Assembly: GCA_016188005.1 (NCBI GenBank)
Contig: JACPIQ010000045.1
Span: forward strand, 1 to 64,000
DNA: 64,000 nt
From: Candidatus Rokuibacteriota bacterium
GTDB taxonomy: Bacteria; Methylomirabilota; Methylomirabilia; Rokubacteriales; CSP1-6
Direction: 5' to 3'
The position numbers and the translations under genes were made by a program. The notes beneath the pieces were generated by a model. That model had not been told where the DNA came from, did not search any database, and saw only the letters and a list, made by a program, of their open reading frames with translations. Each line of letters begins with the position of its first letter. Position 1 is the stretch's first letter. Positions 4,287-25,920 of the stretch are shown here, one piece after another.

Positions 4287-5510
4287 CTACAGCGGGATCT
4301 CGGTGATCGAGAAGATCGCCATCAGCATGGCGACCACGATGAAGCCCACCACGAGGCCCACCGCCAGGATGATGCTCGGCTCGAGCAGGCTGGTCAGCCG
4401 CTTGACCGTCCGTCGCACCTCGACGTCCAGGGTCTCTCCGAGCTTGAGCAGCATGTCCTCCAGCCGGCCGGTCTCCTCGCCCACGCGCACGAGATGGAGG
4501 GCCAGGGGCGGGAACACCCCCGTCTCGGTCATGGCGGCGGACAGGCCCGTGCCCCGCCGGACCTGGTCGCCCAGCCGGCCGACCGCGCGGCGCAGGACGC
4601 TGTTCGAGGCCGTGTCCTCGGCCGCGCCCAGCGCGGCGAGGATCGGCACCCCGCCCCTCAGGAGAGTGCCGAGGATGCGGGCGAACCGGGCCACCTCCGC
4701 CCTGAGAAGGATGCCGCCGGCCAGCGGCAGTCGCAGGGCGACGCGGTCCCACCACTTCCGTCCGGTCTCGGCGCTGAGCAGTGTCCACGCGCCGAGCAGC
4801 CCCGCGGCGCAGGCCAGCAGCACGCCCCACCAGTGGCGCTGGAGCGCCTCGCTGGTGACCAGCAGCGCCTCGGTGGGCAGCGGCACGGGCTGGCCGAGGT
4901 CGCGGAAGATCTCGGCGAACCGCGGCACGACGAAGGCCATGAGGAAGGCCACCGTGACGGCGCCCACCGCCATGAGCAGCGCGGGGTAGATGAGCGCCGA
5001 GGCGACGGTGTCCCGGAACTCCTGCGCTTCTTCCAGGACGCGCGCCAGGCGACTGAGCGTGGTCTCCAGCGCGCCGCTCTTCTCGCCGGCGCGGACCATG
5101 CTCACGTACAGGCGCGAGAAGGGACGCGGATGGTGCTTCGCCAGCGCCTCGCTGAGCGAGCTGCCCCCCTGGATGCTCCCGAGCAGGTCCTTGGTGATCG
5201 CGACGAGATGGGACCCGGAGGAAGTCGCCTGCAGGATGCCCAGCGCCCGGTCCACGGGAAGGCCCGCCTCGAGGAGGCTCGCGAGCTGCTGGGTGAAGCC
5301 GACGATCTCCTGGCGCGTGACCGCGTGACGCCCGAGGCGGAGTCGCGCGAAGGGGGAGATGTGCTCGGGGCCCTGCTCGGGGGCGACGTGCACCGGGAAG
5401 TAGGAGTCGCGCTGCAGCCGCTCCACCACGGCCCGGGCATCGGCGGCCTCCATGACCCCGGTGATCGCATGTCCGCTCCGATCGAGAGCCCGGTAGAGGA
5501 AGGTCGCCAT
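4287..5510 (-). CDS. gspF: Type II secretion / type IV pilus inner-membrane platform protein
   Basis: A 407-residue protein from ATG 5510 (MATFLYRALDRSGHAITGVM), the usual GspF/PilC length. Both T2SSF domains are present: the first around residues 65-190 (RQEIVGFTQQLASLLEAGLPVDRAL and FSRLYVSMVRAGEKSG), the second around 270-395 (VARFARILGTLLRGGVPIL and ALHLVRVGEETGRLEDML). Membrane segments lie near residues 165-190, 215-240 and at the C-terminus. The protein anchors the cytoplasmic ATPase to the inner membrane and helps pseudopilus assembly. It begins 8 nt after the gspE stop on the same strand, so the two are co-transcribed. No pseudopilin or secretin gene is next to them; the rest of the machine must be elsewhere. 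Confidence 0.95.
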   Translation of the reverse strand: MATFLYRALDRSGHAITGVMEAADARAVVERLQRDSYFPVHVAPEQGPEHISPFARLRLGRHAVTRQEIVGFTQQLASLLEAGLPVDRALGILQATSSGSHLVAITKDLLGSIQGGSSLSEALAKHHPRPFSRLYVSMVRAGEKSGALETTLSRLARVLEEAQEFRDTVASALIYPALLMAVGAVTVAFLMAFVVPRFAEIFRDLGQPVPLPTEALLVTSEALQRHWWGVLLACAAGLLGAWTLLSAETGRKWWDRVALRLPLAGGILLRAEVARFARILGTLLRGGVPILAALGAAEDTASNSVLRRAVGRLGDQVRRGTGLSAAMTETGVFPPLALHLVRVGEETGRLEDMLLKLGETLDVEVRRTVKRLTSLLEPSIILAVGLVVGFIVVAMLMAIFSITEIPL

Positions 5511-5518
5511 GCCCGCCC

Positions 5519-7210
5519 TCAGCTCTCCTCCCGGCTCACCCGGACGACCTCCTCGACCGTGGTGATGCCGTCCCGGGCCTTGGCCCAGCCGTCCTCGGCC
5601 AGGGTGGTCATGCCCGCCTCCACGGCCTGGCGCCGGATCGCTCCGGCGGGCGTCTTCCTGAGGATGAGGCTCCGCACCTCCTCGGTGATCGCGAGCAGCT
5701 CGTAGATCCCTGTCCGGCCCCGGTAACCGGTGCCGCGACAGGCCTCGCACCCCCGGCCGCGCCACAGCTCGACGCCGCGGGTGTCGGTGTGCCCCAGCGC
5801 CAGCAGATCGGCCGGATCGGGGAGGTAGGCCTCGCGGCACTGCGCGCACACGCGGCGCACCAGCCGCTGGGCCAGCACGCCGGCGAGGACGGAAGAGATC
5901 AGGTAGGGCTCCGCGCCCATGTCCTCGAGGCGGGTCACGGCGCTCGGCGCGTCGTTGGTGTGCAGTGTCGAGAACACCAGGTGGCCCGTGAGGGCGGCCT
6001 GGATGGCGATGTCGGCCGTCTCCAGGTCGCGGATCTCTCCCACCATGATCACGTCCGGGTCCTGGCGCACGATGTGCCGCAACCCGTTGGCGAAGGTGAG
6101 GCCGATCTTCGGGCTCACGGGGATCTGGTTGACGCCCGTGAGCTGGTACTCCACCGGGTCCTCGATGGTGATGATCTTCTTGTCGGGCGCATTGATCTTG
6201 TCCAGCGCCGCGTAGAGGGTCGTGGTCTTGCCCGAGCCCGTGGGCCCCGTGACGAGCGTGATGCCGTGCGGCCGCCGGATGAGCCGCCCGAGGTCCTCGG
6301 CCATGGCGGCGGCGAGCCCGAGCCGCTCGAAGGGAAGGAAGACCGAGGAGCGGTCCAGCAGGCGCATGACGATGGACTCGCCGTGGACGGTGGGAATCGT
6401 CGAGACCCGGATGTCGATGCGGCGGCCCTGGGTCGTGACGCGGATGCGCCCGTCCTGCGGCAGTCGCCGCTCGGCGATGTTCATCTCCGCCATGAGCTTG
6501 ATGCGGGAGGCCAGGGCCGCCTGGAGCCGGCGCGGCGGCGCCTCCTGATCGTAGAGCAGCCCGTCGATGCGGTAGCGCACGCGCAGCGCGCTCTCGAAGG
6601 GCTCGATGTGGATGTCGGAGGCATCGGCGTTCACCGCCTCCTCCAGCAGGAGATTGACCAGCCGGACCACGGGGGCTTCGAGCGCGAGGTCCCGCAGATA
6701 GGTCACGTCCTCCTCGAGCTCCCCGGCCGGGGAGGCGACGCCCGCGACGATCTGCTGCAGCGCGCTGGGCGGCGTGACGCCCCAGGTGCGCTCGATGGCG
6801 GCCAGGATCGCCTCCCCGGGCGCCACGCAGACGGTCAGCCGGGCTCCGAGCGCCTGGCGCAGGTCGTCCAGCAGGACCACGTTGGTGGGATCCGCCGTGG
6901 CGACGGTGACGCTGGCGCCATCCACCGCCACCGGGCAGACCGAGTACTGGCGCATGTACTTCGGGGAGAGCGCGTCGAGGACGGGCAGCGTGGAGGGGAT
7001 CTCGTCGCCCGACAGGAAGGTCAGGCCGCGCTGCAGCGCGAGCGCGCGGGCGACGTCGTCCGCGCTCGCCCCGCCCAGGGCGACCAGCGCCTCGCCCAGC
7101 CGCTCGCCGCTCCGGCGCGCGCGGTCCAGCGCCGCCTCGAGGGCCTCGGGCGTAATCATGCGCGCCTCCAGGAGGATCTGGCCGAGCAGGCGGTGAGCCG
7201 GAGCGCTCAT
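5519..7210 (-). CDS. gspE: Type II secretion / type IV pilus assembly ATPase
   Basis: A 563-residue ATPase that drives pseudopilus or pilus assembly from the cytoplasm. The N-terminal T2SSE_N/MshEN region (RLLGQILLEARMITPEALEA, ALALQRGLTFL) is followed by the ATPase core: Walker A GPTGSGKTTTLYAAL, the Asp box ITIEDPVEYQL, Walker B DPDVIMVGEIRD, the His box TGHLVFSTLHTNDAPSA, and a CX2C/CX2C zinc module (CAQC, CEACRGTGYRGRTG). I chose ATG 7210 (MSAPAHRLL). An ATG 9 bases upstream is possible, but a TAGAAT -10-like box at 7218-7223 overlaps it, which would give a nearly leaderless mRNA starting at 7210. gspF follows after 8 nt. Confidence 0.95.
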   Translation of the reverse strand: MSAPAHRLLGQILLEARMITPEALEAALDRARRSGERLGEALVALGGASADDVARALALQRGLTFLSGDEIPSTLPVLDALSPKYMRQYSVCPVAVDGASVTVATADPTNVVLLDDLRQALGARLTVCVAPGEAILAAIERTWGVTPPSALQQIVAGVASPAGELEEDVTYLRDLALEAPVVRLVNLLLEEAVNADASDIHIEPFESALRVRYRIDGLLYDQEAPPRRLQAALASRIKLMAEMNIAERRLPQDGRIRVTTQGRRIDIRVSTIPTVHGESIVMRLLDRSSVFLPFERLGLAAAMAEDLGRLIRRPHGITLVTGPTGSGKTTTLYAALDKINAPDKKIITIEDPVEYQLTGVNQIPVSPKIGLTFANGLRHIVRQDPDVIMVGEIRDLETADIAIQAALTGHLVFSTLHTNDAPSAVTRLEDMGAEPYLISSVLAGVLAQRLVRRVCAQCREAYLPDPADLLALGHTDTRGVELWRGRGCEACRGTGYRGRTGIYELLAITEEVRSLILRKTPAGAIRRQAVEAGMTTLAEDGWAKARDGITTVEEVVRVSREES

Positions 7211-7256
7211 GGCGGGCATTCTAGCACCCGGGACCTGGCCGCCCGGTCGAGGGCGG

Positions 7257-10127
7257 TCAGCGCCCCAGGAGATCGGCGAGGTAGTCCTCCTCCGGGCCGG
7301 ACGGCGCATCGCCTCGCAGTTCGGCGAGCTGGAGGCGCGCGACGGCGCGGCGGATTCGCGGATCCTCCGGCGCCAGCGTCGCGGCGCGCTCGAGGAAGGC
7401 GAGCGCCTCGGCCCGGCTGTGGAGCCGCTCCGCGGCGAGCCCGGCCAGGAGCAGGGCCTGTGCGCTGCGCGGCTCCCGCTGGATCGCCCTCCTGGCGAGG
7501 GACAGCGCATCGGCCGGCCGGCCGACGCTCAGCGATGTGGCGCTGGCCTGGAGCAGGGCGAGGGCATGGTCCGGCGAGAGCTCCAGGGCGCGGCCGAACC
7601 TGGCGAGCGCCTCCCCCGAGGAGCCTCGCCTCAGCAGCCCCAGGCCGAGCCCGTACCACGCGTCGGCCGTCGCCAGCTCGCGCTCCGCGGTGACCGGCGG
7701 GAACTCCGCGGTGCTGAAGCCTCGGACCAGCCGGAAATTCCGCTGGGTCGTGTCGACGTAGAGGGCGCGCGGCGCCGCGAACTCCAGCGGGAGCCGGTCG
7801 TCCGTGTTCAGTGGTCCATGACCGGGGAGCTTCTCCGCATCGGTCTCGCCGAGGGCGAAGTAGCCGAGGATGCCCGACCACACGGGCAGTCCGAGACGCT
7901 CGAAGTCACGCCGGAGCCCGGCGCTGGCCTCGTGGCGGGCCTTGACCCGGGCCAGGTCGATGCGGACCGGCTCCGCGGCCCCGAGCAGCAGGAAGTCGCC
8001 GCCGGACGTCTGCCAGATGCTGGTGGCCGGGAAGGCCGTGCGAAAGGTCCGGACCACCATCTTCAGATCGTCGGGCTCGAGGTTGTAGCCCTGGACCCAC
8101 TGGAGCATGAGTCCCCCGGCTCGCAGGTGCTCGCGCGCGAGGCGAAAGAACTCCACGGAGAAGAGGGAGGCCAGGCCGCTGATCCAGGGATTCGAGGGCT
8201 CCGAGATGATGACGTCGTAGCGTTCGCGCGTGGTCAGGAGGAAGTTCCGCCCGTCGGCCACGGCCGTCCGGAGGCGCGGATCCTTCAGGACATCGCCGTG
8301 GAGGTGGGCGAAGAATCGGGAGGCCTCCACCACGCCCGGCTCGATCTCCACGACATCGACGCGCTCCACCGGGTGGCGGGCCACCGCGCCGGCGGTGATA
8401 CCGCTGCCCAGGCCGATGATCAGCACCTGCCTCGGGTCGGGGTGGACCAGGAGGGGAAGATGGCCGGACATGATCTGGGTCGGCATGTCCCCTCCCGTCG
8501 AGGCATCCGTCTTGCCGTTCACCCGGAGGACGATGCGCTCTCCCATGCGGTGCACGGCCACGGTCGCACTGGGCCCGTCGCGGTAGTACAGCATCTCCTT
8601 GGACCGCATCGCCCGCCGCAACGCCGGGACCCCGCCCTCGCGGAGATAGCTCTTGCCGTAGATGGCGGGGCCGCTCGCCATCACCCCCTGATCCCAGGGC
8701 GGCAGGACGGACATCGCCAGCGCGACGGGCAGGGCGGTGGCGAGGGCGGCCCAGCGCCAGGCCCGGAGCGGGTAGGGAGGGTACGCGAGCAGTACGGCGG
8801 CCAGCAGCAGGTTGACCGCGACCCCGGCCTTCAGTGATCCGTGAACCCCGAGGAGAGGAACGAGCGCGAAGCCCCCCAGCATCGCCCCGGCGATGGCCCC
8901 GGCGGTGTTCGCCGCATAGACCCGACCGACGGCATGCCCCGCACGGCTGACCTCGCGCGCGGCCATTGCCACGGCACAGGGGAATGTCGCCCCGATGAAC
9001 AGCGTCGAGGGGAGGAGCGCGGCCACGCTCACCACGACCTGGAGCAGCTGCACGAAGGCCGGCGAGTCAGACCAGGCGAGCCCGGCCAGGAATAGGGCCG
9101 GCATCTGCTCGAACAAGAGGACGGTCAGCGCAGTGGCCAGCCCTGTCCCGGCCTGGAGCACTCCGAACGAGGCCGCGGAGGCCGGCCGGCGTCCCCACAG
9201 CAGAGAGTAGAGCGCGCTGCCTCCTGCGATCCCGAGGAGGAAGGCGATGAGCATGGCCGTGAAGGCGTAGGTCGAGCTCCCGGTGACCAGGGACAGCGCG
9301 CGGGTCCACGCCACCTCGTAGACCATGGACACGGCCCCGGACACTCCCAGCGCCGCCAGGGCAAGCCAGGCGGGCGAGGGAGGATCAGTGGGCCAGTCGA
9401 GCTCGGCGCCGGGATCGGGCGGGCCCGCAGCCTCGAGCGCGCCGCCAGGGGCCTCGACCTTCACTCGGACCGCCCGGCTGTACGCGATTGCCAGGGCCCC
9501 CACGGCCAGGTTGGCAGCCGCCGCCACCCAGACGGACAGGCGATTCCCGGCCATGGGAATCAGCACGTAGCCGGCCAGCGCTACCCCGGCGAGCGCTCCG
9601 AAGGTGTTCAGAGCATAGAGGGCGCCGATCGTCCGGCCGAGACCCCCCGCGTCTCTGGCCAGCGCCTGGCTCAGCACGGGCAGCGTTCCCCCCATCAGCG
9701 TCGTCGGCACCAGGAGCAGCGCGAAGACGAGCAAGAACTGGATGAGGCTGAACGTAGCGTGGGAGGTACCCCACTCGCGCTGAAGTCCCAGGTACGCGGC
9801 GGAGGCTGCCCAGAGAAGACCGGGCAGCAGCGCGCAGTACAGGCCGATACCGACCTCGAGCCAGCCGTAGGCGCCGATCAGGTTGTCGATGCGGTGGGCG
9901 CGGCGCCCCAGCAGGAAGCTCCCGAGGCCGAGCCCCGCCATGAAGGCGGCCAGCACGGTGGTGATGGCGTACACCGTGTGTCCGAAGACGAGCGAGAGCA
10001 GACGGAGCCACACGACCTGGTAGACGAGGCCCGTGGCGCCCGACAGGAAGAAGCAGACCGCCACGATACCGAGGCCGGCCCACCCCATGGACTCAGGCTC
10101 CTCCTGCGTCGCCGCGAACGCCGGCAT
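7257..10127 (-). CDS. Membrane-bound spermidine synthase-like protein with C-terminal TPRs
   Basis: A 956-residue three-part protein. Residues 15-470 are a transporter-like membrane region (GATGLVYQVVWLRLLSLVFG, GSFLLGRRAHRIDNLIGAYG, repeated at AVSMVYEVAWTRALSLVTGS) of about 14 segments. Residues about 500-770 form a Rossmann aminopropyltransferase-like domain with LIIGLGSGITAGAV, VDVVEIEPGVVEAS, DGRNFLL and DVIISEPSNPWISGLASLFS. Residues about 820-930 are TPR repeats. Family members are annotated fused MFS/spermidine synthase, but few have proven polyamine activity. The context next to gspE gives no substrate. A CATAAT box precedes the start; no strong Shine-Dalgarno is visible. An alternative start is Met14. 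Confidence 0.85.
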   Translation of the reverse strand: MPAFAATQEEPESMGWAGLGIVAVCFFLSGATGLVYQVVWLRLLSLVFGHTVYAITTVLAAFMAGLGLGSFLLGRRAHRIDNLIGAYGWLEVGIGLYCALLPGLLWAASAAYLGLQREWGTSHATFSLIQFLLVFALLLVPTTLMGGTLPVLSQALARDAGGLGRTIGALYALNTFGALAGVALAGYVLIPMAGNRLSVWVAAAANLAVGALAIAYSRAVRVKVEAPGGALEAAGPPDPGAELDWPTDPPSPAWLALAALGVSGAVSMVYEVAWTRALSLVTGSSTYAFTAMLIAFLLGIAGGSALYSLLWGRRPASAASFGVLQAGTGLATALTVLLFEQMPALFLAGLAWSDSPAFVQLLQVVVSVAALLPSTLFIGATFPCAVAMAAREVSRAGHAVGRVYAANTAGAIAGAMLGGFALVPLLGVHGSLKAGVAVNLLLAAVLLAYPPYPLRAWRWAALATALPVALAMSVLPPWDQGVMASGPAIYGKSYLREGGVPALRRAMRSKEMLYYRDGPSATVAVHRMGERIVLRVNGKTDASTGGDMPTQIMSGHLPLLVHPDPRQVLIIGLGSGITAGAVARHPVERVDVVEIEPGVVEASRFFAHLHGDVLKDPRLRTAVADGRNFLLTTRERYDVIISEPSNPWISGLASLFSVEFFRLAREHLRAGGLMLQWVQGYNLEPDDLKMVVRTFRTAFPATSIWQTSGGDFLLLGAAEPVRIDLARVKARHEASAGLRRDFERLGLPVWSGILGYFALGETDAEKLPGHGPLNTDDRLPLEFAAPRALYVDTTQRNFRLVRGFSTAEFPPVTAERELATADAWYGLGLGLLRRGSSGEALARFGRALELSPDHALALLQASATSLSVGRPADALSLARRAIQREPRSAQALLLAGLAAERLHSRAEALAFLERAATLAPEDPRIRRAVARLQLAELRGDAPSGPEEDYLADLLGR

Positions 10128-10238: not shown

Positions 10239-11363
10239 CTATCTCGTGCGGCAGCGCCTCAGCCCGAGAAGGCTCAGGGAGAGGAGGGCGGCGCCCAGCA
10301 GCACAACGGTCGCCGGCGCGGGAACGGGCGGCGTGACCGACTGCAGGGCGGCGATGAAGATCTGCTCGAAGCCGTTGTTCGAGTCGCCAAAGGCGAACCG
10401 GATCTGCATCACGGTATAGGGGTTGCTCGGGTCCTTGAGCTGGTTGTTGAGCTCGGGGGAAAAGAGGGCGAAGGCCGCCTCGTCGGCGCCGAGGTTATGG
10501 TTGACGGTGATGGCTCCCGGGGTGCTGCAGGGCACCTGGACGGCCGGGGGACCCGGCAGGAGGCATACCTGGCCGGCGGAGAAGGAGAACTCTCCGGGGT
10601 TCGCCGTGTTGAGGAAGTCCCCGCCGTTCATGTCGGTCAGCGGGTTGAACGCCCCGCCGGGTGGGCCGGTGTGGGCGCAGTCTCCGGTGAAGGCGAGAAA
10701 GCCGATCTGGGAGGCGTTGAACTCGTAGCACTTCGGGGTGGCAGTGCCGCCGGCCGGGTCAGTGTCGATCAGGGTCACGTAGCCCCAGCCGAAGATGTCC
10801 TGGGAGGTGTTGTTCTGGTTCTGGTTGAAGAAGAAGACCAGATCCGACCCCGCCAGGAAGGATTCCAGGGTGCTGATCTTGACATCCCAGGTCCCGGCCA
10901 CATCGCCGGTGAACTCCCCGGTCCCGCCGGGATCCTTCGCCCCGACGAACTTGAAATCCGCGCCAGAGCCGGTGTAGTCGGCGCAGCCCGGTATGCCCCC
11001 GGTCTTGCTCTGGCAGATGGTGTCGTAGTTGATGCCTGACCCGGCGTTGATGGTCTCGTAGGCATCGTCCCCGTTGTTCTTGCCGAGCACGTCCTCGTTG
11101 TTCCTGCCGGCCGCCGGAAAGCTTCCGATCACCACGAAGTCCTTGATCTTTCCCGGGGAGCTGTCAACCGAGAAGGACCCGGGCCCGTTGAAGTTCTGGT
11201 CGCCGAAGAAGAAGAGGTTCATGAGGGGAATCGAGTAGGCCTGGAAGTCCCCGTTGTTCCCGGCATATGGGCCAAACGGCGGCAACGTGAAGGCATTTGC
11301 CGCAGGAGCTATCGCCATCGCCAGCCCCGCGGCAATCACCAGCACCGCGATCTGCCTCTTCAT
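10239..11363 (-). CDS. PEP-CTERM sorting domain protein
   Basis: A 374-residue exported protein from ATG 11363, with GGGAGGGA upstream. It has a signal peptide (MKRQIAVLVIAAGLAMAIAP, cleavage after ANA) and an Asn/Gly/Phe-rich body, and ends with the sorting signal: VPAPAT, a hydrophobic stretch (VVLLGAALLSLSLLGL) and the basic tail RRCRTR. Such proteins are cut by a membrane exosortase and released to the surface or exopolysaccharide matrix. The body has four or more Cys (TICQSKTGGIPGCADY, ATPKCYEF, GDCAH, VCLLPG) and no enzyme motif I recognise. Regulation: a -24/-12 promoter at 11438-11454 gives a leader of about 64 nt. It is divergent from a PrsT-like TPR lipoprotein. Confidence 0.88.
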   Translation of the reverse strand: MKRQIAVLVIAAGLAMAIAPAANAFTLPPFGPYAGNNGDFQAYSIPLMNLFFFGDQNFNGPGSFSVDSSPGKIKDFVVIGSFPAAGRNNEDVLGKNNGDDAYETINAGSGINYDTICQSKTGGIPGCADYTGSGADFKFVGAKDPGGTGEFTGDVAGTWDVKISTLESFLAGSDLVFFFNQNQNNTSQDIFGWGYVTLIDTDPAGGTATPKCYEFNASQIGFLAFTGDCAHTGPPGGAFNPLTDMNGGDFLNTANPGEFSFSAGQVCLLPGPPAVQVPCSTPGAITVNHNLGADEAAFALFSPELNNQLKDPSNPYTVMQIRFAFGDSNNGFEQIFIAALQSVTPPVPAPATVVLLGAALLSLSLLGLRRCRTR

Positions 11364-11437: not shown

Positions 11438-11454
11438 AGCAGGCGACGTGCCAG
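11438..11454 (-). promoter_or_regulatory. Sigma-54 (-24/-12) promoter of the PEP-CTERM gene
   Basis: On the minus strand the sequence reads CTGGCACGTCGCCTGCT, matching YTGGCACG-N4-TTGCW at every position but one (C for T at the first T of TTGC). GG and GC are 10 bp apart as required. The predicted start is near 11427, giving a leader of about 64 nt to ATG 11363. Sigma-54 promoters need an activator; see the upstream motif at 11516-11532. Confidence 0.8.
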
Positions 11455-11515
11455 CTGCAAGACGCTAGCGAAATTAATCTATTCGGCCGCATGCCTCGGG
11501 CAGCCGGTCCGGGAT

Positions 11516-11532
11516 CGTAAAGCGAGCCGACA
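11516..11532 (-). promoter_or_regulatory. Putative activator (UAS) site upstream of the PEP-CTERM promoter
   Basis: The minus strand reads TGTCGGCTCGCTTTACG. It shares TGTCSG-N4-CTTTACG with 11585-11601 (plus strand, facing the TPR lipoprotein) and 25584-25600 (plus strand, before the second PEP-CTERM gene). Its 3' end lies exactly 64 bp from the GG of the -24 element, the same distance and orientation as at the second PEP-CTERM gene. Binding by a PrsR-type regulator is inferred. Confidence 0.65.
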
Positions 11533-11584: not shown

Positions 11585-11601
11585 TGTCGGCAAACTTTAC
11601 G
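11585..11601 (+). promoter_or_regulatory. Putative activator (UAS) site facing the PrsT-like gene
   Basis: Reads TGTCGGCAAACTTTACG on the plus strand, the divergent twin of the site at 11516-11532. Its 3' end is 67 bp from the GG of a weaker -24/-12 candidate at 11667-11682. Confidence 0.55.
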
Positions 11602-11666: not shown

Positions 11667-11682
11667 CGGCGCTGATCTTGCC
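11667..11682 (+). promoter_or_regulatory. Candidate sigma-54 promoter of the PrsT-like gene (weak)
   Basis: CGGCGCTGATCTTGCC has GG-N10-GC spacing and a good -12 (TTGC), but the -24 half keeps only GGC. A palindromic GGAGTATACTCC at 11708-11719 contains a TATACT box that could serve as a sigma-70 -10 instead. Placed here mainly because the activator-like site at 11585-11601 faces it. Confidence 0.35.
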
Positions 11683-11786
11683 CGGTGCGGGGAGTCGGTA
11701 CGGCCCCGGAGTATACTCCAGGGGCGCGCAGGCTCGGAGCGCGTGGAGAGATGACCCCGACCCATTCACGAGGCCACGACAGCGGC

Positions 11787-14700
11787 ATGGCAAGGCCCCG
11801 AGGCATGAGGCTGCTCCACCTCCTCATGCTGGTCCTGCTGGTCGCCGGCGCCTGCTCCGAGACCCCGGCCGTGAGGAAGCAGAGGTCACTGGAGCGCGGC
11901 TTGCGGTATCAGGCCGAGGGCAAGTACAGCGAGGCGGTCATCGAGCTGAGGAATGCGCTGCAGATCGCCCCGGACTTCGTTCCGGCCCTGCAGGCCCTGG
12001 GCGCCGCCTATCGCGGGAAGTCCTTCTTCGGGGATGCGCTGCGGGAGCTGCAGCGGGCCCTCAGGCTCGAGCCGGACTCGCTCCCGGTCAGGGCCGAGCT
12101 GGGACAGGTCTTCCTCGCGGTCGAGGCGTGGGATGAGGCCGAAACCCAGGGCAAGGCCGTGCTCGAGAAGGAGCCCGGAAACGCCTACGGGATGTTCCTG
12201 GTGGGCGCGGCCCACAGCGGCAGGGGGGAGCCGAAGAAGGGGATAGAGCTCCTGTCCCGCGCCGCCGAACTGGCTCCCGCGGTCCCTGAAATCCAGAGCG
12301 CGTACGGCGAGGCCCTCGCGGCGCTGGGTCGGCCGGAGGAAGCCGAGAAAGCCTATCAGGCGGCGGTGGCCCTGAGGCCGCGACATGCCGATGCGCTCAT
12401 CGGCCTGGCGAGCCTCCTGCTTCGCCAGAAGAAGATGGAGGCAGCAGCACAGGCGCTGGCCCGGGCAAAGGCGGCCGATCCCGGGAGCACCAAGGTGAGG
12501 ATCGCCCTGAGCACTCTCCTCGGCGCCCAGGGCCGGTTCCCCGAGGCGATCAAGGAGCTGGAGGATCTTCCGCCCCAGAGCTGGTCCCCGCGCTACCTCC
12601 TGACACTGGGTAGCTTCTACGTCAGGGCCGGCCGTTTCGCAGACGCGATCTCGCCCCTCCGCTCCCTGGTGGATCGCTTCCCCGACCTGCTCATCGCCCG
12701 GCACCTGCTCGGTCATGCGGCCCTGCGGGCCGAGAGGATTGACGAGGCGCTGGCGCAGTTCCAGGAAATCGTCAGGCAGGCGCCGGCTCTGGCGCAGGGG
12801 CGGTACAGCCTGGCCCTGGCGCATCTCGCGGCCGGCCGGCCGGTGGAGGCCCTGAAGGAGCTCGAGGCGGTCGCGAAGCCCCTGGGGAGGTACCCCGAGT
12901 ATCACGTCCAGGTGGGGCGGGCCGCCCTCATGCTGGGCCGGTGGGACGAGGCGATCAGGGCCGCTGACAGCGCCAGGCGCCTGGCTCCGGGAAGCCCGCA
13001 GCCCTGGGGACTACTCGGCCAGATCCACGCGGCCCGGAGCGATCCCGCCAAGTCCCAGGCGATGTACGCGAAGGCCCTGGACCTGGACCCCGACTTCGTC
13101 CCGGCGCACCTGGCTCTCGGCCGCCTTTTCTACCTTCAGCAGAAACCCGAGGCGGCGATCGCGGAATACGAGGCGGCCCTCAAGGTGGACCCGAGGAATC
13201 GCCCCGCCATCGCGTCAAAGATCGCGACGCTCATGAGCGCGGGCCGGGCCGATGAAGCCCTCGGGTTCCTCCGGTCGAAGCTCCAGGAGGACGCGCAGAA
13301 CCCCCACCTCCTCACCATGCTGGGCAGCCTCCACCTCGTCAACAAGGAGGCGAAGCGGGCCGAGGAGGCCTATCAGCGGGCGCTCAAGGCCGACGAGAAG
13401 TTCATCCCCGCGCGCTTCCAGCTGGCCCGGCTCGCCGCGGGCTCGGGGAGGGCCCCCGAGGCCATCGGTCACCTGGAGCGGATCGTGGCGGAGCGGCCTG
13501 GCCATGTCCCCGCCGTGGGCATGCTGGTGGCGCTCAACATGCGCGACGGCCGATTCGACCGCGCGATCTCCGTACTCGAGGCGGCGGTGGAGGCGACCCG
13601 GGAACAGCCCGAGCTCGTCCTGCGGCTGGGCGAGGCCTATCTGAGGCATGGTCGCCACGACCAGGCCATCGCCAGGCTCTCGCCGATCGTGGCGTCGAGC
13701 CCCGGCCTGGTGGAAGCCCGACTGCTGCTGGGGCTGGCCTATCTGGAGAAACAGGTGCCGGTGGAGGCGCTGCGCCACTTCGAGCAGGTCCGGAAGCTGA
13801 ACCCGAAGCTCGCCCTCAACCATTACTACCTCGGGCGGGCACTCCTGGCGCGTGGTGACGTGCCGGGCGCCATGAAGGCCTACCGGCAGGCGCTGCAAGT
13901 GGACTCCGGCCTCAGGCAGGTCCGGCTGGAGCTGGCGGGGCTGTCAGGCGAGAAGCCGGACGAGGCGCTGCTGGCCGGCCATGTCCAGGAGCTCCGGCGC
14001 GCGCTGGAGGCGGACCCGCGGAACGTGTCCACCCGGTACGCCTTCGCGCGGGCCCATCTCGCCCGTGGCGATCGCAAGGCGACGGAGGCCGAGCTCAGGC
14101 GGATCCTCGACGCCGCCCCGCTGTTCCAGCCCGCCAACATGCTCATGGCGCTGTTCCGGACGCTCGAGCGAAAGCCGGATGAGGCCGCCGAGCACCTCAA
14201 GGCGGTGCTCCGGGCGAATCCCGCTCACGTGCAGGCGAACCTGCTCCTGGGAGGCTATTACGAGCAGCGGGGGCAGCTCTCGCTGGCGATCCAGCACCTG
14301 GATGCCGCGCTCCGGGCAGGGCCGCCTCGCGACGACCTGAAGCTGCGCCTGGCCGACCTCTACGGTCAAGTCGGTCGCCTGGACGACGCCGTCGCCCGAG
14401 CGCAGGAGGTGGTGGCGGCGCGGCCCGGCCTTGCAGCGGCCCAGTACGTGCTGGGTGGCCTGCATCTGAAGCGGAACAGCTTGCCGCCGGCTGTGGAGGC
14501 CCTGAGCGCAGCGGCCCGTCTGGCGCCCACCAACGGCGTGACGCATCTCGCCTTGGCGGGGGCCTACGAGCGAGCCGGCGAGGTGGACAAGGCCCTGGCG
14601 GCCTACAAGCGCACCCAGGCCCTGATGCCGAGCGACCCGCGCCCCTACAACAACGCCGCGTGGCTCCTCGCGGTGCAGGGCAAGAACCTCGAGGAGGCGC

Positions 14701-15014
14701 TGGCGCTGGCACGGAAGGCCCATGAGATCACCCGCAGCGCGCCTGGCCTGGCCTCTGGCTTGCCGGGGGTCCTGGACACGCTGGGGTTCGTGCACTATCG
14801 CCGGGGAGAATACGCGCAGGCCGAGCCGCTCTTCCGGCAGGCCGCCGAGCTGGCCACGGACAGCGCCACCGTGCACTACCACCTCGGCCTCACCTATCAC
14901 CGGCTCGGACGCAAGGGTGAGGCGGCCACCTGGCTGCGCCGCTCGCTCCAGCGCGGGGCACAGTTCGCCGAGGCCGATCAGGCACGCCAGCTTCTCGCCG
15001 AGCTGGGAGGCTGA
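11787..15014 (+). CDS. prsT: PrsT-like TPR-repeat lipoprotein of a PEP-CTERM system
   Basis: A protein of about 1075 residues made almost wholly of TPR repeats after a lipoprotein-type signal (MRLLHLLMLVLLVAGACSET, lipid Cys after AGA). The first repeat (YSEAVIELRNALQIAPDFVP) and the overall size match the PEP-CTERM system TPR protein PrsT, a likely scaffold at the inner or outer membrane for exopolysaccharide or exosortase work. Divergence from a PEP-CTERM gene with a shared regulatory region supports this. The start is uncertain: ATG 11751, 11787 and 11805 are in frame; 11787 gives the most normal signal peptide, while 11751 has an adjacent GGAGAG. A paralogue begins at 63302. Confidence 0.82.
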   Translation: MARPRGMRLLHLLMLVLLVAGACSETPAVRKQRSLERGLRYQAEGKYSEAVIELRNALQIAPDFVPALQALGAAYRGKSFFGDALRELQRALRLEPDSLPVRAELGQVFLAVEAWDEAETQGKAVLEKEPGNAYGMFLVGAAHSGRGEPKKGIELLSRAAELAPAVPEIQSAYGEALAALGRPEEAEKAYQAAVALRPRHADALIGLASLLLRQKKMEAAAQALARAKAADPGSTKVRIALSTLLGAQGRFPEAIKELEDLPPQSWSPRYLLTLGSFYVRAGRFADAISPLRSLVDRFPDLLIARHLLGHAALRAERIDEALAQFQEIVRQAPALAQGRYSLALAHLAAGRPVEALKELEAVAKPLGRYPEYHVQVGRAALMLGRWDEAIRAADSARRLAPGSPQPWGLLGQIHAARSDPAKSQAMYAKALDLDPDFVPAHLALGRLFYLQQKPEAAIAEYEAALKVDPRNRPAIASKIATLMSAGRADEALGFLRSKLQEDAQNPHLLTMLGSLHLVNKEAKRAEEAYQRALKADEKFIPARFQLARLAAGSGRAPEAIGHLERIVAERPGHVPAVGMLVALNMRDGRFDRAISVLEAAVEATREQPELVLRLGEAYLRHGRHDQAIARLSPIVASSPGLVEARLLLGLAYLEKQVPVEALRHFEQVRKLNPKLALNHYYLGRALLARGDVPGAMKAYRQALQVDSGLRQVRLELAGLSGEKPDEALLAGHVQELRRALEADPRNVSTRYAFARAHLARGDRKATEAELRRILDAAPLFQPANMLMALFRTLERKPDEAAEHLKAVLRANPAHVQANLLLGGYYEQRGQLSLAIQHLDAALRAGPPRDDLKLRLADLYGQVGRLDDAVARAQEVVAARPGLAAAQYVLGGLHLKRNSLPPAVEALSAAARLAPTNGVTHLALAGAYERAGEVDKALAAYKRTQALMPSDPRPYNNAAWLLAVQGKNLEEALALARKAHEITRSAPGLASGLPGVLDTLGFVHYRRGEYAQAEPLFRQAAELATDSATVHYHLGLTYHRLGRKGEAATWLRRSLQRGAQFAEADQARQLLAELGG

Positions 15015-25556: not shown

Positions 25557-25596
25557 CCAGACCTGTCCGAAACCTTCCAGACCTGTCCGGAACCTT
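25557..25596 (+). repeat. Two abutting 20-bp direct repeats upstream of a sigma-54 promoter
   Basis: CCAGACCTGTCCGAAACCTT (25557-25576) is followed with no gap by CCAGACCTGTCCGGAACCTT (25577-25596), 19 of 20 bases identical. They lie 68-107 bp upstream of the -24 element, the usual place for enhancer-binding sites, and the second copy runs into the shared motif at 25584-25600. Confidence 0.8.
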
Positions 25597-25600
25597 TACG
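25584..25600 (+). promoter_or_regulatory. Putative activator (UAS) site of the mini PEP-CTERM gene
   Basis: Reads TGTCCGGAACCTTTACG, the TGTCSG-N4-CTTTACG motif also found twice before the first PEP-CTERM locus. The 3' end is exactly 64 bp from the GG of the -24 element, as at the other PEP-CTERM promoter. Confidence 0.65.
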
Positions 25601-25661: not shown

Positions 25662-25678
25662 CTGGCATGGAGTGTGCT
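25662..25678 (+). promoter_or_regulatory. Sigma-54 (-24/-12) promoter of the mini PEP-CTERM gene
   Basis: CTGGCATGGAGTGTGCT matches YTGGCAYG-N4-TTGCW except one base (G for the first T of TTGC), with GG-N10-GC spacing. The start is predicted near 25689, about 52 nt before ATG 25741. Confidence 0.78.
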
Positions 25679-25740: not shown

Positions 25741-25920
25741 ATGGGAAAGAAGAGTCTCCTGTCCGGCGCGGTTCTGTTGACTGCGGCCTTCGTAGCTTTC
25801 GCTGACCCGGCGTTCGCAGGGGCGCCCCCACCCACAGTAAGCGTTCCGTTCCCTGGGACCCTGGTACTGCTCAGCAGCGGGGCCGTCGCGCTCGCTTGGT
25901 GGCTGGGCAGGAAGCGGTAG
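25741..25920 (+). CDS. Minimal PEP-CTERM-like protein (59 residues)
   Basis: A 59-residue product from ATG 25741 with GGAGGGG 8 nt upstream. It is almost entirely targeting signals: a signal peptide at residues 1-26 (KKSLLSGAVLLTAAFVAFA, cleavage after AFA), eight residues GAPPPTVS, then the sorting signal VPFPGT (35-40), a hydrophobic helix (LVLLSSGAVALAWWL) and the basic tail GRKR. If both signal peptidase and an exosortase cut it, only about 8-12 residues remain. It has its own sigma-54 promoter, a direct-repeat activator region and a terminator, so it is a stand-alone regulated gene and not a stray frame. Its function is unknown; a matrix peptide, a signal or a dummy substrate are all possible. 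Confidence 0.78.
   Translation: MGKKSLLSGAVLLTAAFVAFADPAFAGAPPPTVSVPFPGTLVLLSSGAVALAWWLGRKR

Follow-up and report, generated by a model that had tools for sequence, protein, structure and literature searches.

A predicted PrsR/sigma-54 switch, with nearly constant spacing, ahead of PEP-CTERM genes in Rokubacteria

In a 64,000-nucleotide stretch of a Rokubacteria draft genome (the whole stretch is hereafter the window), a conserved 17-nt box lies 63 bp ahead of a -24/-12 sigma-54 promoter at two loci, and each promoter is followed by a gene for a PEP-CTERM protein. The switch is common to about ten exported PEP-CTERM genes of this genome. We consider it very probable that box and promoter together form an enhancer-type switch through which PrsK, PrsR and sigma-54 control the PEP-CTERM gene set. 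The initial annotation of the window had arrived at the same sigma-54/PEP-CTERM reading, which is supported here, although it is not a new idea: the finding is a correct rediscovery of a published switch, because the box, the spacing, the sigma-54 site and the link to PrsR are already in Haft et al. 2006 (PMC1569441). What is new is the clear presence of the switch in Rokubacteria and its strikingly rigid spacing; our literature search found no earlier report of an extension to Rokubacteria or of a near-constant spacer.

Boxes and promoters in the window

The initial annotation had placed the motif TGTCSG-N4-CTTTACG at 11516-11532 (minus strand) and 25584-25600 (plus strand), each 64 bp upstream of a near-consensus -24/-12 promoter and followed by a PEP-CTERM gene. 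Coordinates and strands are both correct, and a promoter and a PEP-CTERM gene are indeed found 3' of each box. The 64 bp is counted from the last base of the box to the first G of the promoter; at both sites, 63 bases lie between the box and the GG.

At the first site (TGGCACGTCGCCTGCTT), the predicted PrsR box TGTCGGCTCGCTTTACG is read from 11532 to 11516 on the minus strand and is one of four perfect matches in the genome. The promoter TGGCACGTCGCCTGC (11439-11453, minus strand; GG at 11452-11451, GC at 11440-11439) begins 63 bp 3' of the box and is the top sigma-54-like site of the window. It precedes a gene on the same strand (10239-11363) for a 374-aa PEP-CTERM protein that ends in PVPAPATVVLLGAALLSLSLLGLRRCRTR and scores 16 bits with TIGR02595, equal to the cut-off of 16. 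Type II secretion genes adjoin this gene on its 3' side: the minus strand at 4287-10127 encodes a fused MFS/spermidine synthase with TPR repeats, GspE (655 bits, over the cut-off) and a GspF-like protein (395 bits, below the cut-off of 424).

At the second site (TGGCATGGAGTGTGCTG), the box TGTCCGGAACCTTTACG (25584-25600, plus strand) is likewise a perfect match and is followed after 63 bp by the promoter TGGCATGGAGTGTGC (25663-25677, plus strand; GG at 25664-25665, GC at 25676-25677). The gene downstream (25741-25920, plus strand) encodes a small protein of 59 aa with a signal peptide and VPFPGTLVLLSSGAVALAWWLGRKR. It is called PEP-CTERM because of this visible C-terminus; its PF07589 score of 14.5 bits is below the cut-off of 20.7, and NF041927 gives a C-terminal match. 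A partial copy of the box, TGTCCGAAACCTTCCAG (25564-25580, plus strand), was read directly from the sequence 20 bp 5' of the full one. Such a partial second box, with TGTCCG exactly 20 bp 5' of the main box, is present at two sites of this genome (window 25564-25600 and locus L023), and an Erythrobacter locus (L128) has TGTCAT 20 bp 5' of its box.

A third exact copy of the motif in the window, TGTCGGCAAACTTTACG (11585-11601, plus strand), was overlooked in the initial annotation. It is divergent from the box of the first site and faces prsT (11805-15014, plus strand), which encodes a 1069-aa TPR-repeat lipoprotein of the XrtA/PEP-CTERM system (TIGR02917, 439.1 bits; cut-off 312.2). A weaker -24/-12-like element, CGGCGCTGATCTTGC (11667-11681, plus strand), lies 66 bp 3' of this box.

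Genome-wide distribution and spacing

The genome is a 5.37-Mb draft in 140 contigs (completeness 98%, contamination 4.7%). The strict motif TGTCSG-N4-CTTTACG occurs in it four times, compared with zero for the reversed control and about 0.1 expected from simulation with an order-3 Markov model built on sequence from this genome. Three of the four copies precede PEP-CTERM genes and the remaining one precedes prsT. The copy outside the window, on contig C44, belongs to a gene whose product ends in GIPEPASALLLGAGLLLLAGAVRRRSRK and scores 21 bits with TIGR02595 (cut-off 16). When the motif is relaxed to the 16-mer TGTCNG-N5-TTTAC, 14 sites are found, against zero for the reversed control and about 0.9 expected under the same model. 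Base 17, left free in this pattern, is always a purine among the 14 sites, with G about as frequent as A, and the 17-nt motif thus ends in TTTACA or TTTACG throughout.

Nine of the 14 relaxed boxes precede genes that are PEP-CTERM-like by their C-terminus, one precedes prsT and one a FecR-domain gene; reading of the downstream frames identified no target for the other three. Hence unrelated genes do not have the motif before them as often: PEP-CTERM-like genes or prsT account for 10 of its 14 matches. Examples are a protein that ends in VPGPAAVILMGLGLLVLGIMRRRA and has a VWA domain, and one that ends in VPGPATLLLLGGGLAAIGVLGWAHRNA and has a CHRD domain. The family-model scores of the PEP-CTERM targets are formal for some and weak for several, because many targets have VPAP or VPGP instead of VPEP. 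An automatic filter for the PEP-CTERM C-terminus fired on 65 of 1153 frames (~5.6%), and targets in this genome were therefore assigned by reading the C-termini together with the model scores. The FecR-domain gene (L206:2122-5310, contig C99) is boxed and encodes a secreted protein of 1062 aa (FecR domain, 32.8 bits; cut-off 24) that is not PEP-CTERM; it is a candidate for a regulon member outside the PEP-CTERM family.

The spacing was examined with a home-made score for sigma-54 elements, for which the threshold was set at 17. In six of the 14 relaxed sites an element scoring at least 17 lies precisely 63 bp away, and in one it lies at 64 bp; further spacers are 66 bp (prsT) and 54, 84 and 87 bp, each seen once, with 87 bp belonging to the C44 site. 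With 61 offsets corrected for, the chance of six sites sharing one of them is ~2e-17. Scanning with the spacer set to 63 bp and an imperfect box tolerated yielded an additional PEP-CTERM gene on contig C47, whose box has one mismatch. An exception is a PEP-CTERM gene of the THxN family on contig C45, ~6 kb past the end of the window (L016:10003-11271; 140.6 bits, cut-off 85). It has a consensus -24/-12 site, TGGCACGGGCCCTGCA, and a degenerate box ~107 bp upstream, and it adjoins two prsT-like genes.

Regulatory genes and relatives

The regulators presumed in the initial annotation are all encoded. There is one rpoN gene (TIGR02395, 431.9 bits; cut-off 277), and contig C68 carries PrsR, as a full-length match (TIGR02915, 644 bits; cut-off 502.6), PrsK (TIGR02916, 421.5 bits; cut-off 300) and, directly adjoining PrsK, an exosortase (TIGR02602, 159.8 bits; cut-off 105.6), all within a polysaccharide-type cluster. 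Three PrsT-like proteins exceed the cut-off of TIGR02917 (439, 430 and 407 bits), the latter two being encoded on C45 past the window. PrsR has a receiver, an AAA+ domain with the loop GSFTGA, and a Fis-type helix-turn-helix with the helix SRPTFHEML; SRPT(F/L)(H/Y) is kept in most of the PrsR proteins compared. However, prsR (L014:9774-11222) contains a perfect in-frame tandem duplication of 87 bp (L014:10368-10541), absent from all 26 related proteins. It adds 29 aa to the AAA+ domain in the ESELFG...GSFTG region and takes in the greater part of the GAFTGA loop, which contacts sigma-54. An assembly error may account for it, or the protein may be decayed or altered.

Rokubacteria belong to the Methylomirabilota and not to the Proteobacteria, and Candidatus Rokubacteria GWA2_70_23 has an FtsH that shares 95% identity with the one encoded in the window, compared with at most 69% for the other named genomes tested. 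Across phyla, counts of the box alone carry little information in AT-richer genomes. The box was found 23 times in a deltaproteobacterial draft against zero for the control, but nine times in the AT-richer Nitrospirae genome G001, where the control also occurs nine times. Since the control is as frequent as the box in AT-richer genomes, the composite pattern of box plus promoter was used across phyla. This composite element is found in 14 of the 57 family genomes; several of the matches have spacers of 62-65 bp and precede PEP-CTERM genes, while others are chance-like. G001 has two sites that precede PEP-CTERM genes, with spacers of 63 and 66 bp. The composite element and PrsR co-occur in eight genomes (14 and 15 of 57, respectively, with PrsR of the present genome counted; P = 0.005, not corrected for relatedness). 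A protein search of the relatives for PrsR at too strict a cut-off returned only the self-match. PrsR was not found in two genomes of the same genus when only 24 of their candidates were scored, a search that also missed PrsR of the present genome.

Proposed mechanism and alternatives

By analogy with the NtrC family, a signal would lead the membrane kinase PrsK to phosphorylate PrsR, an NtrC-type activator, whose Fis-type helix-turn-helix would then bind TGTCGG-N4-(C/G)TTTAC(A/G). A DNA loop could span the 63-bp spacer (~six helical turns) and bring PrsR to RNA polymerase-sigma-54 at the -24/-12 site, where ATP hydrolysis by PrsR would drive open-complex formation. This would turn on about ten scattered genes for exported PEP-CTERM proteins, and probably prsT as well, and their expression may be coordinated with exopolysaccharide and exosortase functions. 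Several findings count against this model: the box of the THxN gene is degenerate, the C44 spacer is 87 bp, three of the 14 boxes are without an identified target, the duplication in PrsR spans the GAFTGA-loop region, the limited search of two same-genus genomes found no PrsR, and prsT of Aquincola is not RpoN-dependent. A bolder version, in which the regulon reaches well past the Proteobacteria as one conserved unit, Rokubacteria represent a rigid-spacing variant with prsT inside the regulon, and the loop duplication of PrsR is real and alters activation, strikes us as a long shot.

The box and promoter might be real and yet answer to an NtrC-type protein other than PrsR. NtrC-like activators number in the dozens in this genome (the PrsR model has 74 matches, many being partial), its PrsR has the duplicated GAFTGA region, and several of the family genomes that bear the element gave no PrsR match. 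Nevertheless, PrsR alone exceeds the curated cut-off, is enriched among the element-bearing family genomes and has a conserved recognition helix, and it was PrsR that the phylogenetic profile of Haft et al. 2006 (PMC1569441) singled out. Another activator is hence improbable, and PrsR remains the preferred one.

A second alternative is that the sites resemble each other because a single promoter region was recently duplicated together with its gene, and not because regulatory sites were under selection. PEP-CTERM genes do often adjoin prsT-like genes in this genome (twice on C45, and on C95), as duplicated units could. In the aligned sites, however, information is near zero at positions -7 to 0 and 18 to 25, so the motif is bounded at both ends and conservation is confined to 17 bp. 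Since the aligned sites were picked by the pattern, independent evidence comes only from the flanks and the positions that the pattern leaves free, and not from the invariance of the fixed ones. As there is no similarity outside the elements and the genes that follow are not related to each other (VWA, CHRD, unknown), recent promoter duplication was rejected as very improbable. That a loose -24/-12 pattern follows a short motif at two loci by chance, which GC-rich DNA might favor (GG-N10-GC is common there, with many such sites in the window), can be dismissed almost outright, given the genome-wide excess of boxes over the Markov simulation and the empty reversed control, the 63-bp spacing at six or more loci and the agreement among target genes.

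Relation to known systems

Haft et al. 2006 (PMC1569441) described, in Proteobacteria only, a 17-nt motif that ends in TTTACA, is sometimes repeated, and lies 62.8 +/- 10.6 nt from a -24/-12 sigma-54 motif. It was found upstream of 99 of 167 proteobacterial PEP-CTERM genes; PrsK, PrsR and PrsT emerged from the phylogenetic profile, and the link to PrsR was predicted. The present element shares with it the 17-nt box, the TTTAC(A) end, the spacer of ~63 nt (32-92) to -24(GG)/-12(GC), the position before single PEP-CTERM genes, and a genome that encodes PrsK, PrsR, PrsT, an exosortase and RpoN. It differs in its host, in a final base that is G about as often as A, and in a spacer of 63 at many sites. 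The proteobacterial distribution, which does not hold here, is a reported range and not a feature of the mechanism. The 2006 rule thus extends to Rokubacteria and to at least one genome of the Nitrospirae. For an uncultured lineage this means a predicted regulon for surface-protein sorting, and the almost invariant spacer provides an easy handle for testing the long-standing proposal that PrsR binds the box.

Enhancers of the NtrC family are typically paired sites at variable distance. The window elements resemble such systems in having a response-regulator enhancer-binding protein, an upstream box and a -24/-12 promoter, unlike them in that the box stands at a nearly fixed distance.

An experimental parallel is pepA of Aquincola tertiaricarbonis RN12 (PMC9850573), which is RpoN1-dependent and has a mapped start behind TGGCAC/CTGCTT; an upstream enhancer sequence is reported, and prsT follows pepA. 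The first site of the window likewise reads TGGCAC...CTGCTT, and its PEP-CTERM gene adjoins prsT. In the window, however, the PEP-CTERM gene and prsT diverge, with a separate box and a weak -24/-12-like site preceding prsT. Between that promoter-like element and the start of prsT, at 11708-11719, lies a perfect palindrome, GGAGTATACTCC, which is possibly the operator of another regulator.
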